Shown one piece after another: positions 59,711 to 64,000 of a stretch of 64,000 bases of DNA. Positions within the stretch are counted from its first letter, which is position 1. Every line of letters starts with the position of its first letter. Origin of the DNA: Arthrobacter sp. SLBN-112. GTDB lineage: Bacteria > Actinomycetota > Actinomycetes > Actinomycetales > Micrococcaceae. A model generated the notes under the pieces. The model was not told the DNA's origin. It made no database searches and was given only the letters and a program-made list of their open reading frames with translations. Position numbers and translations under genes: made by a program. The stretch covers positions 3,162,001 through 3,226,000 of the forward strand of contig NZ_VFMU01000001.1 of assembly GCF_006715225.1 (NCBI RefSeq), given 5' to 3'.

Positions 59711-60343
59711 TCAGGTTGGCTGGTCCTCGGCCTCGCCCAGGCCGCGGGCGGCAAGCGCTTCGCCGGTTTGGCGGGCGTAGGCCACGGAGGTGATGAAGAC
59801 CGGCAGCACCAGTGCCCGGGGGTTGCGTTCCAGGCCCCTGGCCCGGGCCGAGTCCCGGACGTCGGCGAACGTACCGGCGATGAACGGGATGCTGCGAAGC
59901 ATGATACCAATGGTCAGGGCGAAGCGTTCCGGATCGGCACCCAGCCTCTTGAAGGGACTCGCCGCCCGGACAACGCCGTCCAGGAGCCGTTGAATTGGAG
60001 TGGTGGCGGTAAGCAGGGACGCTGCCACGACGCAGACCAGGATGTTCAGCACGATCCGCGTCGCGGTGGGCCCGCCCAGCTGCCACCACTGGAAGAGGCC
60101 GATGGCCAGCAGCACCGGGGCGAGCGGCCGGACGGCACCCCACAGCCGCTTCACGCCGGTGCCGGCCGCCAGGAACAGGCCGGTGAGAACGGCCAGCACC
60201 GCTGCCGAAATACGCCAGTCCACGATGATGAAGGACGCCAGCCCGCAGGCGAAGACCAGCGCAAACTTCAGCGCCAGTGGCGTCCGGTGCAGGAGGGAAT
60301 TGCCCGGCACATAGTTGGCCAGGAGGAATCCGTGGCCCCTCAT
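59711..60343 (-). CDS. bioN: ECF transporter transmembrane subunit EcfT (BioN)
   Basis: The protein is 210 aa from ATG 60343, which overlaps the ecfA stop (ATGA). It has four to five hydrophobic helices and the cytosolic coupling helices with Ala-Arg-Gly motifs (SARARGL, about residue 166, and a later LAARGLGE). EcfT links the BioY substrate-binding protein to the ATPase. It is the last gene of bioY-bioM-bioN and ends 3 bp from the convergent thiolase stop codon. Confidence 0.92.
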   Translation of the reverse strand: MRGHGFLLANYVPGNSLLHRTPLALKFALVFACGLASFIIVDWRISAAVLAVLTGLFLAAGTGVKRLWGAVRPLAPVLLAIGLFQWWQLGGPTATRIVLNILVCVVAASLLTATTPIQRLLDGVVRAASPFKRLGADPERFALTIGIMLRSIPFIAGTFADVRDSARARGLERNPRALVLPVFITSVAYARQTGEALAARGLGEAEDQPT

Positions 60344-61071
60344 TGCGCCTCCCGTCCTGCCGGGTGGAGGGTCTGCAGGCACCACGAACGGTAGGCTGCC
60401 ACGGCTTCGGCGGGGGCGCCGTCGAATGCCACGCGGCCCGCTTCGATGACCAGGACGCGGTCCATCTCCAAGGCCAGGTCAAGGTCATGGGTGGACATAA
60501 TGATCTGCTGGTCCAGGGTGGCCAGTGTCCTACGAAGCAGCTCGCGGTTGCGCAGGTCAAGCAGGGTGGAGGGTTCGTCAAGGACCAGCACCGCCGGATC
60601 CACGGCGAGCACGGCGGCGAGCGCCATCAGTTGCCGTTCGCCGCCGGATAGCTCGTAGATGCTCTGGTCCGCCAAGTGAAGGAGTCCCAGCCGGCCAAGC
60701 GCTGCCTCAGCCTGGCGGCACCGTTCCGGGCCGTTCTTCACGGAGCGCCGCAGGGACAGTTCCACGTCCTCCCTGCCGGTGGGCATCACCAGCTGGGAGA
60801 GGGGATCGGTGAAGACGAAGCCGACGTTCCGCCTGACTTTCCGCACGGCACGCACTGTGTCGTCGCCGTCGACCGCCACCCTGCCGTGGGTTGGCTGGAT
60901 GAGCCCGTTGACCAGGCGCAACAGCGTGGATTTGCCGGAGCCGTTGGCGCCGATGATGCCCACGCGTGCTTCCTCGAGCCGGAGGGTCACTGCGTCGAGG
61001 AGGACTTTGGGTTGCGGGGAGTTCTCCGTTTCGACGGCGACGGACACCTGGTCAAAGGTCACTACGGGCAT
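60340..61071 (-). CDS. bioM: ECF transporter ATPase (BioM)
   Basis: The protein is 243 aa from ATG 61071. It has Walker A IIGANGSGKSTLL (about residues 38-50), the Q-loop FTDPLSQLVMP, signature YELSGGERQLMAL, Walker B VLVLDEPSTLLD and the switch His of MSTHDLDLAL. It powers biotin uptake with BioN and BioY. It starts 11 bp after the bioY stop codon and is translationally coupled to bioN. Confidence 0.93.
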   Translation of the reverse strand: MPVVTFDQVSVAVETENSPQPKVLLDAVTLRLEEARVGIIGANGSGKSTLLRLVNGLIQPTHGRVAVDGDDTVRAVRKVRRNVGFVFTDPLSQLVMPTGREDVELSLRRSVKNGPERCRQAEAALGRLGLLHLADQSIYELSGGERQLMALAAVLAVDPAVLVLDEPSTLLDLRNRELLRRTLATLDQQIIMSTHDLDLALEMDRVLVIEAGRVAFDGAPAEAVAAYRSWCLQTLHPAGREAQ

Positions 61072-61082
61072 GGCGATGGGTC

Positions 61083-61727
61083 CTAGGCGCTTTCGGTTGC
61101 CAGGGCACGGCGGCGCACGCGGCGCACCAGGACGTCGGGGAAGGCCCGGTGAAGCGCTACGGCGATTACGGCCGCGAGGACATTCTTGATGATGTCCCCC
61201 GGGTAGAAGATGAGGTCGCTCAGGAAGGCCTGCTCGAGGGTTGCCTTGGAGTTCAGGGCGATGCCCACGATGCCCAGCGAGTGCACCACCACGATGCTGG
61301 TGACCGTGGCGGACAGGAAGAACCAGAGGGCGCGAGCCTTGGTGGTGCGCTTGATCACTACAGTGGCCAGCCATCCCACGATGCCCGCGGCGATGGGGAA
61401 GGCGATGATGTAGCCGGCGGAGGGCACGGCAAGGATGCCCAGGCCGCTGCGGCCCTGGCTGAAGATGGGGAGGCCGGCGAGCCCAAGGAGGGTGTACAGG
61501 CCGACGGCGGCGAAACCGCGCGCCGGGCCCAGCACCAGTCCGGTGAGCATGACAGCCAGCGTCTGGAAGGTGATGGGGACGCCGAAGCCGTTCAGGGCCA
61601 GTCCCGGCACCAGGGCCGCGCCGGCGACGAGGGCGGCAAAAACGGCGATGAGCCCCAGGTCGGTGCCGTTCCAGCGGCGGCGCTCCGTCCGCGGGCTGTT
61701 CTTCGGGGTGGTATCGGTGTTGCTCAT
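61083..61727 (-). CDS. bioY: Biotin transporter substrate-binding component BioY
   Basis: The protein is 214 aa from ATG 61727, with AGGACC upstream. Six hydrophobic helices are visible, with the family segments FGVPITFQTLAVMLTGLVLG (about residues 48-67) and GLGILAVPSAGYIIAFP (about 94-110), plus the ACC-type loop near FYPGDIIKN. BioY binds biotin with very high affinity within the ECF complex. It heads the bioYMN operon. TGTACA repeats flank its -10 box (61745-61768), so biotin-responsive control is plausible. Confidence 0.95.
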   Translation of the reverse strand: MSNTDTTPKNSPRTERRRWNGTDLGLIAVFAALVAGAALVPGLALNGFGVPITFQTLAVMLTGLVLGPARGFAAVGLYTLLGLAGLPIFSQGRSGLGILAVPSAGYIIAFPIAAGIVGWLATVVIKRTTKARALWFFLSATVTSIVVVHSLGIVGIALNSKATLEQAFLSDLIFYPGDIIKNVLAAVIAVALHRAFPDVLVRRVRRRALATESA

Positions 61728-61744
61728 GGTGGTCCTGTCGAGGT

Positions 61745-61768
61745 TGTACAAGCGGAATCTAATGTACA
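61745..61768. promoter_or_regulatory. Paired TGTACA sites around the bioY -10 box
   Basis: Two identical self-complementary TGTACA hexamers (61745-61750 and 61763-61768) have start positions 18 bp apart and enclose a minus-strand TAGATT (61761 to 61756). This is a candidate operator for a biotin-responsive regulator. Confidence 0.5.
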
Positions 61769-61795: not shown

Positions 61796-62263
61796 TCATT
61801 TTGTAGGGGATCTACTAAACAGGGGACCCGGGGCTTTGGGCCGGGCACAAGGACCCTCCAAATATGTGGACTTCGGAGCTTTGGCGGTGTTTGTTGCCTG
61901 CGCTCTTTGCCGCCAATCGCCAATAACGAGTGTGCTGGCGGCTGCTTCGATCACGTCGTCGGTGATGTTTTCGAGCTGGTTGGTCTTCAGTACACGGGTG
62001 ATCCGAGGGAAGAGTCGTTCAAGCAGCCGGAAGTTGCCGCGAGTGATCCGCTCGATCGCGGCGATTGCCTGGGCGTCGGTGAAGTCGTCCGGATCGAGTG
62101 GCCTGCCGACTCGTTTCCAGTGCCGTTCGAGGGCGAACAGGAGCTCGTCGCGACCCAGGGCCCGGTAGCGGTGGATGCATCGAGCTGGAGCTTCGCGTCC
62201 TGCCCCGATGTTACCGACGCGTAGATACCCAAGGTGTCCCAACCGGTCATCGTGCCTCAGCAA
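61796..62263 (-). pseudogene. Remnant of a TniB/ExeA-type transposition ATPase
   Basis: About 155 codons are open without a credible start. Residues matching RYRALGRDELLFALERHW, DDFTDAQAIAAIERITRGNF and RLLERLFPRI, followed by an ITDDVIEAA...LVIG segment, look like the C-terminal lid of AAA+ helper ATPases that accompany DDE transposases. The Walker A and B part is missing, and the first ~28 codons are not recognisable. The last ~45 codons after LVIG also look unrelated. It is best read as a decayed end of a mobile element. No terminal inverted repeats or target duplications were identified. Confidence 0.55.
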
Positions 62264-62561: not shown

Positions 62562-62750
62562 CTACTTTCGCCGCGATCTCGTGGAGTATAGGAGCACCAG
62601 CACGGGAATGGGCAACAGATAGAGTGCAGACACGATGGCGTCTCCCCACCGGGGGATCCCGTAGAAAAGAACAAACACCAAGAATCCCAACACCAGAGCG
62701 ATCATAGATCCGATCACGACGATCAGAGCTCGTTTGCGTCCATTCAGCAT
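62562..62750 (-). CDS. Small two-helix membrane protein overlapping the RHS gene, candidate immunity protein
   Basis: This 62-aa protein starts at ATG 62750, inside the last codons of the RHS gene (7-bp overlap across its TGA), which implies coupled translation. The layout is a short basic N-terminus (MLNGRKRA), helix 1 at about residues 9-30 (ALIVVIGSMIALVLGFLVFV), a short polar turn with IPRWGD, helix 2 at about residues 37-56, then a basic tail STRSRRK. I recognise no family. Its position behind a polymorphic-toxin-like RHS tail and its membrane nature fit an immunity protein against a membrane-acting toxin; this is inference. Confidence 0.6.
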   Translation of the reverse strand: MLNGRKRALIVVIGSMIALVLGFLVFVLFYGIPRWGDAIVSALYLLPIPVLVLLYSTRSRRK

Positions 62751-64000
62751 TCGAAAATTCCTCTCCAAACACCGGCAGCAGCGCCAAATATTGCTCCCCC
62801 GGTGGCGGCTGTACCCCAGGCGAGTGTCCCTCCCGGCCCGGCGAAGTTTGCCCACCAAGCTGCACCCCCGGCCATTATTGCTCCCGAACCAGCGTTGATG
62901 CCCATCAGTTGCCCGTAGCATTGCTGCACAGGATTCGGGCCAGTCGCCGCACCGCAAGCATTCCAGGAATAGCAACCGGATGTGGGGGAGTCGATAGTAC
63001 AAACCCCGTAAGCGTCGCACCAGTCCAGACCCGTCGGGTCGGTGTTGTTGATGGGATTAGCGCCCGCATAGAGGTAAACATTGATTTCTTGGCCTGAGGG
63101 GTCGGGTTGGGTGAAGCGGCCGCGGGCGGGATGGTAGTAGCGGGCTCCGAATTTCATGCGGTTGCTGGTCGTGTCGTTGTAGCCGCCAGCGTAAGTCCAG
63201 GGGTTGGTGGCGGCACTGGTTCCGGTGGTGCCGGTGTCGTCTCCCCAGGAGTCGTAGCTGTAGGTGGCGGCTTTGGCCTGGGTGCTGTCGGTGAGCAGGA
63301 TGGTCGAGCCGAGCGCGTCGGTGGTGTAGTAGTAGCTTGCCCCGCCGTTTGTGCGCATGCTGATGAGCGTACCTCCGGGGTCTCGGATGAACGAGGTTGT
63401 TCCGCTGGTCTTGGTCTGTTGGGTGACGCCGAGGGAGCCGTTGAGGAACGAGGATGAGCCGGCGGTGAGGCGTTCGTCGTTGCGGGTGCCGGCGTAGGTG
63501 TAGTTCGTGGTGGTGGTGCCGTTGGTGCCGGCGGTGAATTGGTTGAAGACGTTGTAGGTCACGTTTGAGGCGGAGCCGCCGTCGATGAAGTTGCCGTTCG
63601 CGTCGTAGGTGTATTTGGTGGCTCCTGTGGTCGGTGTGGAGCAGTTCCCGTTGGTGGGGCCGTACCAGCAGAGCTGGTCCGCGGCGTTGTAGGTGGAATA
63701 GCTGGTGGCGGTCCCGGTCTTGGCTGCGCTGAGCCGGTTGCTGTTGGCGTCATAGGTCCAGGATTCCGTGACCGTGCCCGTGACGGCGGAGGTGAGTCGG
63801 TTGAGTTTGTCGTATCCGTAGGTGGTGACCGCGCCGGTGTCCGTGGTCATGGTCTTCCGCTGGGCGCCGTCCTTGGCCCCGTTCAGGGTGTAGGTGTACG
63901 CGCGTTTGGCCAGGACCGTGTTGCCGGTGTTGGTCGCGGTGATGGCCGTGATCTTGCCCGCCCCGTCGTAGGTGGTGGTGTTCTTCACCCCGTTGGGGTA
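62744..64000 (-). CDS. RHS/YD-repeat protein, C-terminal part, 5' end outside window
   Basis: The frame is open to the right edge, so 418 codons of a larger gene are visible. YD-type repeats are clear (YGYDKLNRLTSAV, WTYDANSNRLSAA, YTYDANGNF), followed by the RHS-associated core GARYYHPARGRFTQPDPSG and YLYAGANPINNTDPTG. After DPTG comes a 94-residue variable tail (about 63028 to 62747) with six Cys and a Gly/Ala/Trp-rich hydrophobic end (WWANFAGPGG, GGAIFGAAAGVWRG). RHS proteins build a shell that delivers such tails as toxins. The tail matches no family I know. The N-terminal export or anchoring part is not in the window. Confidence 0.9.
   Translation of the reverse strand, partial: YPNGVKNTTTYDGAGKITAITATNTGNTVLAKRAYTYTLNGAKDGAQRKTMTTDTGAVTTYGYDKLNRLTSAVTGTVTESWTYDANSNRLSAAKTGTATSYSTYNAADQLCWYGPTNGNCSTPTTGATKYTYDANGNFIDGGSASNVTYNVFNQFTAGTNGTTTTNYTYAGTRNDERLTAGSSSFLNGSLGVTQQTKTSGTTSFIRDPGGTLISMRTNGGASYYYTTDALGSTILLTDSTQAKAATYSYDSWGDDTGTTGTSAATNPWTYAGGYNDTTSNRMKFGARYYHPARGRFTQPDPSGQEINVYLYAGANPINNTDPTGLDWCDAYGVCTIDSPTSGCYSWNACGAATGPNPVQQCYGQLMGINAGSGAIMAGGAAWWANFAGPGGTLAWGTAATGGAIFGAAAGVWRGIFEC

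Follow-up and report, generated by a model that had tools for sequence, protein, structure and literature searches.

A short six-cysteine tail on an actinobacterial RHS protein, a candidate membrane toxin with a linked two-segment partner

The 64,000-nucleotide stretch of the Arthrobacter sp. SLBN-112 genome analysed here (contig NZ_VFMU01000001.1, positions 3,162,001 to 3,226,000; hereafter the window) ends within a minus-strand gene for an RHS/YD-repeat protein, P0001, which bears a 94-residue C-terminal tail and is followed by the gene of a small protein, P0002. The frame 62744-64000 is open and runs on past the window as a single open reading frame (ORF), at L002:2744-7237 in the same 4.40-Mb single-contig genome, with a product of 1497 residues. 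With moderate confidence, we read the tail as a toxin that is carried by a secreted RHS shell and paired with an immunity gene: the tail would cause a membrane leak, and P0002 would provide immunity against it. The features of the locus are listed below. All lie on the minus strand and, where no model is named, are read from the sequence.

62744..64000, minus strand: C-terminal 418 residues of P0001, an RHS/YD-repeat protein (PF05593, E 1.4e-34; TIGR01643)
63026..63256, minus strand: Rhs_assc_core, TIGR03696, P0001 residues 1328-1404, model positions 1-76 of 76 (E 1.4e-17)
63029..63103, minus strand: DPSG-X17-DPTG, counterpart of the RHS aspartyl-protease motif (sequence pattern; predicted cleavage site)
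62744..63028, minus strand: variable tail of 94 residues (93 past the predicted cut) with six cysteines; candidate membrane toxin
62918..63019, minus strand: cysteine-rich leader, with the first five cysteines at tail residues 4, 10, 19, 25 and 37
62747..62917, minus strand: Gly/Ala/Trp-rich 56-residue segment (a single Arg, a single Glu) together with the terminal Cys
62888..62914, minus strand: glycine-zipper match GxxxGxxxG, tail residues 39-47
62759..62797, minus strand: glycine-zipper match GxxxGxxxGxxxG, tail residues 78-90
62760..62766, minus strand: GGAGAGG, Shine-Dalgarno-like, 9 bases ahead of the P0002 ATG and within the tail frame
62562..62750, minus strand: P0002, 62 residues with two hydrophobic segments; candidate cognate immunity protein

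The RHS carrier, its tail and the small partner

Matches to RHS_repeat (PF05593) and YD_repeat_2x lie upstream of the tail. The TIGR03696 model is complete ahead of it, so that the start of the tail coincides with the end of the core model. The N-terminus of P0001 reads as a signal peptide by inspection, so the protein appears to be exported and the cysteines of the tail could then pair outside the cell. In the Pfam and NCBIfam family scans, no PAAR or VgrG model matched P0001, and at E 0.1 no Pfam family matched the part N-terminal to the RHS repeats. By eye, this part shows three repeats built around RVVDTR / RIYDT motifs ahead of the YD repeats (L002:6150-7000, minus strand), perhaps a surface-binding part. 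The repeat region (residues 886-1199) holds eight cysteines as four close pairs, 886/894, 966/971, 1052/1064 and 1190/1199, which are 8, 5, 12 and 9 residues apart; this arrangement is as expected for a disulfide-bearing extracellular protein.

RHS shells are self-cleaving: the cut falls after DPxGL, and the tail stays inside (PMC10684867). The two DPxG motifs of P0001 are spaced by X17; the published motif is DPXGX18DPXG, with a spacing of 18 in many enterobacterial RHS proteins and of 19 in Tse5, which is cut between Leu1168 and Ile1169 (PMC10684867). The X17 spacing is found in 51 of 77 anchored core ends, and the other 26 are unmatched by the pattern. In alignments with solved shells, the chains of PDB 9ifo_A and 8qja_A end at the aligned DPxGL of the P0001 core, and that of 8h8a_A ends one residue past the aligned DPTG; for the Tse5 shell chain 8cp6_B, the match table places the end at the same position of the profile. 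Because the solved chains stop at the aligned DPxG(L), a 93-residue peptide is the expected product of P0001 cleavage. Judged from the motif and these shells, the predicted cut after DPTGL would fall between codons 63026-63028 and 63023-63025.

After DPTG the tail runs for exactly 94 residues, from L to C, and is followed by TGA. The five-cysteine leader suggests a small folded part ahead of the Gly-rich part, for which a role in receptor binding or entry is one guess. The 56 residues between the last two cysteines comprise 15 Gly, 14 Ala and 4 Trp, with a single Arg and a single Glu, and the sixth cysteine is the terminal residue 94. GxxxGxxxG occurs three times in the tail, counted with overlaps, versus 0.62 times in shuffled sequences (3.1% of shuffles as high), and GxxxGxxxGxxxG once (8.5% as high). 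The 600 bases upstream of the tail have a G+C content of 62% and the tail itself one of 61%, compared with about 54% for P0002.

The P0002 frame is open along its full length, and the termini of the protein are basic on both sides of the hydrophobic segments. Its start overlaps the stop of the tail (ATGCTGA), with the ATG placed 7 bases ahead of where that stop codon ends; in its longest form, the ORF starts at -25 relative to the tail stop.

Tails and partners among relatives of the core end

Searches with the tail itself returned no convincing relative. In the protein database, reached through the end regions of the 418-residue piece and of the full protein, the tail was absent at E 1 from 1699 and 838 candidates, respectively; this search also failed to list P0001, and the database representative may carry another tail. 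Among the genomes of 84,980 species, 160 pattern matches arose and none was confirmed. In 150 of the 206 genomes of the genus the tail found its own copy (2.3e-58) and no convincing other; 42 other genus genomes match at E 0.003 to 0.1, which we take as chance. Plasmids, Pfam, NCBIfam, PHROGs and the PDB gave no convincing relative, and no Pfam family matches the tail at E 10. The family libraries revealed no enzyme motif, and no search aimed at enzyme motifs was made beyond those libraries. For P0002, the protein database returned its own copy only and the family libraries weak matches only; the 150 genus genomes contain six other matches, which are weak (best E 2.4e-4). Clustering by blastp leaves the tail of P0001 alone. 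Its best shuffled-alignment match (z 5.1) is a Gly-rich tail of genome G189 (G numbers denote genomes, L numbers loci). We considered grouping it with the Cys-leader tails of G205, G099, G050 and G033, and claim no homology for this group.

The relatives were collected instead with a 105-residue query that stops at the core end. Matches were obtained in 26 of 206 genomes of the genus (37 places), in 23 of 395 genomes of the family (15 new places) and in 21 of 394 genomes of the class (26 new places), which gives 78 places; one further place, in G098 (L097), lies outside these 78. In G026 no core end can be anchored, and in G161 the gene is broken within the core end. Two tails of 15 and 17 residues were set aside, 11 are longer than 110 residues, and 63 are short (21-110 residues), so that 63 of the 74 intact tails above 20 residues fall into the short range. 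These 63 form 40 sequence clusters, and the core ends of the other proteins are 43-91% identical to that of P0001.

The junction between core and tail is sharp. Over 38 relatives, the per-residue identity to P0001 drops from 1.00 at the G of DPTG to 0.87 at the L after it and then to 0.34 and 0.00. At the DNA level, similarity to the seven relatives that were compared is lost 5-57 bases upstream of the tail. The nearest relative, in G112, is 91-92% identical in the core, yet its tail and partner are unrelated to those of P0001. By sequence comparison, homology among the RHS relatives ends at DPxGL and the tails are exchanged as modules. Averaged over the 63 short tails, G+C is 63% in the core, 60% in the tail and 54% in the following 200 bases.

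These results bear on the preliminary description of this DNA. It had reported a 94-residue tail after DPTG with six cysteines and a Gly/Ala/Trp-rich end, which both the ORF and the core model confirm, and it had taken the tail for an exchangeable C-terminal module, which agrees with a conserved core followed by unrelated tails beyond DPxGL. It had also allowed for decay or truncation, and this part is not supported. That the tail is a remnant of a longer toxin, with a hydrophobic pre-toxin region left behind, is in our estimate improbable: the tail stays in frame up to a stop codon that overlaps a fully open gene preceded by the Shine-Dalgarno-like GGAGAGG, its cysteines are even in number, and a short tail is the rule among the relatives (63 of 74). 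A broken transposon-like stretch, recognised by eye about 0.5 kb downstream, and the two broken core ends among the 78 (G026 and G161) would fit a remnant. Across the protein database, species and genus genome and plasmid searches, no relative was found in which this tail extends into a longer domain.

Nearly all short tails have an even number of cysteines. A non-zero even count is found in 61 of 63 (49 with two, 10 with four and two with six), and none of the 63 has zero or one; 38 of the 40 clusters are even throughout. Both odd tails, from G386 and G077, have three cysteines, and the second half of the G077 tail looks out of frame. As controls we took length-matched C-terminal pieces of the longest non-overlapping ORFs of at least 150 residues in the same loci, picked mechanically (n = 213). 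Among these, 82 have no cysteine and 64 have one; a non-zero even count is found in 43 pieces, out of 131 that contain any cysteine and 67 that contain two or more. Measured against 43/67, the chance is 5e-10 for 61 of 63 tails and 5e-6 for 38 of 40 clusters, values that serve as guides only, kinship being possible. The rule does not extend to the 11 long tails, of which 3 are even. In the 80 core residues ahead of the tail, 35 of 63 proteins have no cysteine, 26 have one and two have two. Internal pairing would be expected to result in even counts such as those over the 40 clusters.

In the commonest layout, one cysteine lies within 12 residues of each tail end (35 of 64 rows, including one false row from G161). 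Other two-cysteine tails have their cysteines close together; in the 49 two-cysteine tails the span ranges from 3 to 71 residues, with a median of 42. Gly and Ala make up 37% of tail residues (65 rows), and GxxxGxxxGxxxG is present in 28 of 64 tails (the false G161 row included), compared with a mean of 4.7 and a maximum of 10 in shuffled sets. Hydropathy exceeds 1.6 in a 19-residue window in 46 of the 63 short tails; that of the P0001 tail does not.

A small partner gene is the second recurrent feature. We counted as a partner an ORF of 45-200 residues with at least two hydrophobic segments that starts between -60 and +200 bases from the tail stop. Such an ORF follows 50 of the 63 short tails, that of P0001 included, versus 12 of the 213 control ORFs (Fisher p 3e-31); when the partner is capped at 110 residues, the numbers are 44 of 63 and 9 of 213. 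The partners are diverse, and their similarity covaries with that of the tails (Mantel r 0.32 over 63 pairs, in which long tails and partners with one segment are included; the highest value in 1000 permutations is 0.24). In G112 and G189, both tails and partners are alike on cores that are 91 and 66% identical to that of P0001, and the same is true of G033 and G090:C23, with cores 73 and 45% identical to it.

Displaced cassettes are typical of contact-dependent growth inhibition (CDI) and RHS toxin systems. At L071 (G050 C1:414000-426000), a full RHS gene is followed by three units of core fragment, tail and partner in tandem, all different. Core-end/tail units in a row are also present in L145 and L156, and two or more core ends per locus occur in G189, G123, G035, G161, G109 and G259 and, in another family, in G1038 and G1017, with a partner in some but not all of them.

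Hydrophobic tails can anchor secreted proteins, and the toxicity of this tail is inferred, so it could instead be a membrane anchor or folding plug of the shell, held or exported with the help of P0002 and without any toxin. We judge this improbable. Anchors would be expected to resemble one another, whereas here 63 tails fall into 40 clusters on core ends that are 43-91% identical; the partners covary with the tails, and displaced core-end/tail units stand in tandem.

For a genus of another family, g64, we fixed a prediction beforehand: at least 90% of short tails with even cysteine numbers and at least 50% with a partner. Matches were found in 29 of 150 genomes at 40 places, three of which had been seen previously. 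The 37 new places include one without an anchor (G1031:C50), one that runs into N (G1030), one tail of 131 residues and 34 short tails. Even counts were obtained for 32 of these 34 (24 with two cysteines, 8 with four) and a partner for 19, in line with the prediction, barely so in the case of the partner. With the two samples pooled, 97 of 109 intact tails above 20 residues are short.

Known membrane-damaging tails and a proposed mode of action

The published systems are compared here as their main texts, or parts of them, describe them. The best PDB matches of the P0001 core are 9pt5 and 9ifo, deposited as teneurin-like protein (TLP). The teneurin superfold combines an FN-plug, NHL and YD-shell, of which the comparison covered the YD/core part. 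The closest parallel, judged by analogy, is the TLP of Bacillus inaquosorum (BiTLP), in which a YD shell is cut at the RHS core site, leaving a fragment of 93 residues (2145-2237; PMC13018210), as long as the peptide expected from P0001. This hydrophobic fragment remains concealed within the shell; it permeabilises E. coli only if a signal peptide is provided, and immunity genes adjoin TLP genes (PMC13018210). BiTLP differs in the bond that joins one of its tail cysteines to the FN-plug of the shell. Other TLPs carry mostly enzymatic tails, and the same source, as far as it was available, describes neither an even-cysteine class of short tails nor two-helix partners; TLPs occur in few species, with Actinomycetota among the phyla (PMC13018210).

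Tse5 of Pseudomonas aeruginosa resembles P0001, as interpreted here, in that an RHS shell with a DPXG...DPXG plug acts as a chaperone for a pore-forming tail (PMC10684867). It differs in its tail of 149 residues and type VI delivery, and the words 'disulfide' and 'cysteine' are absent from the main text of that paper. The preliminary description had suggested that a pore-forming tail would be a different mode of action, a claim that was overstated given that Tse5 and the B. inaquosorum TLP are already published. Its suggestion that a membrane-active peptide with a linked small gene is likelier than an enzyme is supported.

The CdiA-CT/CdiI ionophores of the E. coli EC93 type also have diverse glycine-zipper tails with cognate specificity, and their immunity proteins are, as predicted for P0002, small two-helix membrane proteins, of 72-100 residues (PMC11630599). 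Their carrier is CdiA of Gram-negative bacteria, with an entry domain and a five-helix bundle (PMC11630599). P0001, in contrast, has an RHS carrier and a 93-residue tail, and its class has almost exclusively even cysteine numbers. The tail may work like a CDI ionophore; it does not belong to that group, as the carrier is an RHS protein and not CdiA.

Among Gram-positive bacteria, the LXG proteins TelE and EsxX destabilise or depolarise membranes and have a C-terminal glycine zipper (PMC10434224, PMC12744356). EsxX acts from outside as well and is paired with the membrane immunity pair ExiCD (PMC12744356). They differ from P0001 in their LXG carriers and type VIIb secretion; neither 'cysteine' nor 'disulfide' appears in the main text of either paper. 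TipE, the immunity protein for TelE, has no membrane segment, unlike P0002 (PMC10434224). The W-TIP domain of Zhang et al. (2012) is likewise small and hydrophobic, with two predicted membrane helices, and is a predicted pore former of polymorphic toxins; it differs in being restricted to proteobacteria and in its RxxR and W-TIP motifs (PMC3482391). In the accessible text of that survey, 'disulfide' and 'cysteine-rich' do not appear (PMC3482391).

For the tail of P0001 we infer the following sequence of events, from shell loading and cleavage to disulfide pairing, pore formation and immunity. P0001 would be exported by means of its signal peptide and fold as a YD shell. The C-terminal plug would cut the chain after DPTGL, leaving the 93-residue peptide within the shell. 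Outside the cell, the six cysteines would pair as disulfides and staple the Gly/Ala-rich part. The peptide would then enter the cytoplasmic membrane of a rival from its outer face and produce an ion leak, probably through helix packing along the glycine zippers. P0002, made from an overlapping start codon, would reside as a two-helix membrane protein in the membrane of the producer and block its own toxin only.

Several observations weigh against this mechanism. No homologue of the tail was found, and its membership of the class rests on layout, not on sequence. By the membrane-helix criterion, a 19-residue Kyte-Doolittle mean with the usual threshold of 1.6, its best window reaches 1.24, the fourth lowest of the 63 short tails. 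The tail exceeds its shuffled versions only weakly in glycine zippers (3.1% and 8.5% of shuffles reach the same counts), its five-cysteine leader is unusual, six cysteines being present in just 2 of 63 short tails, and its motif spacing is X17, not X18. In the class at large, 13 of the 63 short tails lack a partner by our rule, G112 and G189 among them having a one-segment partner of another type. In g64, 15 of 34 tails lack a partner by the same rule and two hydrophobic tails have no cysteine; that sample amounts to 12 clusters, 10 of them all even, and is less varied than apparent. Pooled, the two samples give 93 of 97 short tails with even counts and 39 of 43 clusters that are all even. The tail cysteine of BiTLP bonds to the shell plug, so even counts need not mean internal pairs, and the disulfides of BiTLP and CDI proteins make the even-cysteine reading a little less special. 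Finally, four-cysteine tails of about 100 residues with a GEVC-type start look more beta-rich than helical, so a single mechanism may not cover all.

The low hydropathy would also fit a toxin that follows the same immunity logic and acts on a membrane-bound target, such as a transporter, ATP synthase, lipid II or the Sec channel, without a leak of its own. The cysteine-rich leader could then be an entry or receptor-binding part. CDI ionophores depend on specific inner-membrane proteins, and a disulfide is predicted in some CDI entry domains (PMC11630599). The Gly/Ala-rich segment of 56 residues and the class-wide excess of zippers, on the other hand, point to insertion into the membrane, and we consider a membrane-bound target rather unlikely, if the most plausible of the alternatives to a leak toxin.

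Membrane-damaging RHS tails, two-helix immunity proteins and glycine-zipper tails are known; the even-cysteine layout and its apparent spread and diversity are new. Among open-access papers, judged by title and the beginning of the abstract, we found no description of even-cysteine short RHS tails in actinobacteria; subscription papers and preprints were outside the scope of this search. Many of these tails have no relatives in sequence (the 97 short ones form 43 clusters) and therefore escape similarity searches; the layout rule of an RHS core end, a short tail, an even cysteine number and a small two-helix partner finds them. We tentatively propose, at slightly less than an even chance, that actinomycetes possess a very large repertoire, for the most part not yet described, of membrane peptides that are the size of bacteriocins and stapled by disulfides. 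These would be produced, cleaved and transported within secreted YD shells, each with a private two-helix immunity protein, as a Gram-positive counterpart of the CDI ionophores. The even-cysteine rule would then mark toxins that fold and act outside the cell, with the shell replacing CdiA. If true, this would provide a catalogue of toxin-immunity pairs for conflict among Gram-positive soil bacteria, together with small antibacterial disulfide peptides. It also makes testable whether a YD shell keeps a hydrophobic peptide soluble until it reaches the membrane, as proposed for Tse5.

Other tail types and neighbouring DNA

A second type of tail, with 96-108 residues and four cysteines, is found at L140, L145, L152, L154, L155, L156, L157, L162, L073, L076, L106 and L124. 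These tails are Gly/Ser-rich with few hydrophobic runs, and many have a GEVCxxxC-like start and a GKCS...YTF-like end. They possibly adopt a small beta fold, to judge from these sequences, and may act through a different fold from the other tails. A two-segment partner is present in 8 of the 12 loci. Among the long tails, those of L093, L107 and L110 (153-174 residues) are alike although their cores are distant; each has three cysteines, and their partners are 149-176 residues long with two segments.

The broken mobile-element stretch downstream of the P0001 tail spans 61796-62263 on the minus strand. By eye it looks like pieces of a resolvase and of a transposition ATPase, and it has no Pfam match. 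In L085, L084, L083 and L077, resolvase-like N-termini follow the tail at a distance of 0.4-0.9 kb downstream; the loci L082, L111, L104 and L087 have them at other positions. These resolvase-like sequences perhaps belong to the route by which the modules are exchanged.

Farther downstream, at 60340-61751 on the minus strand of the window, are genes for an ABC ATPase and a BioY-type transporter component, which show no apparent connection with the tail. On the upstream side of the RHS gene, beyond the window, a divergent neighbour (L002:7989-10601, plus strand) encodes a protein of 870 residues in which LGFP-like repeats can be recognised by eye.

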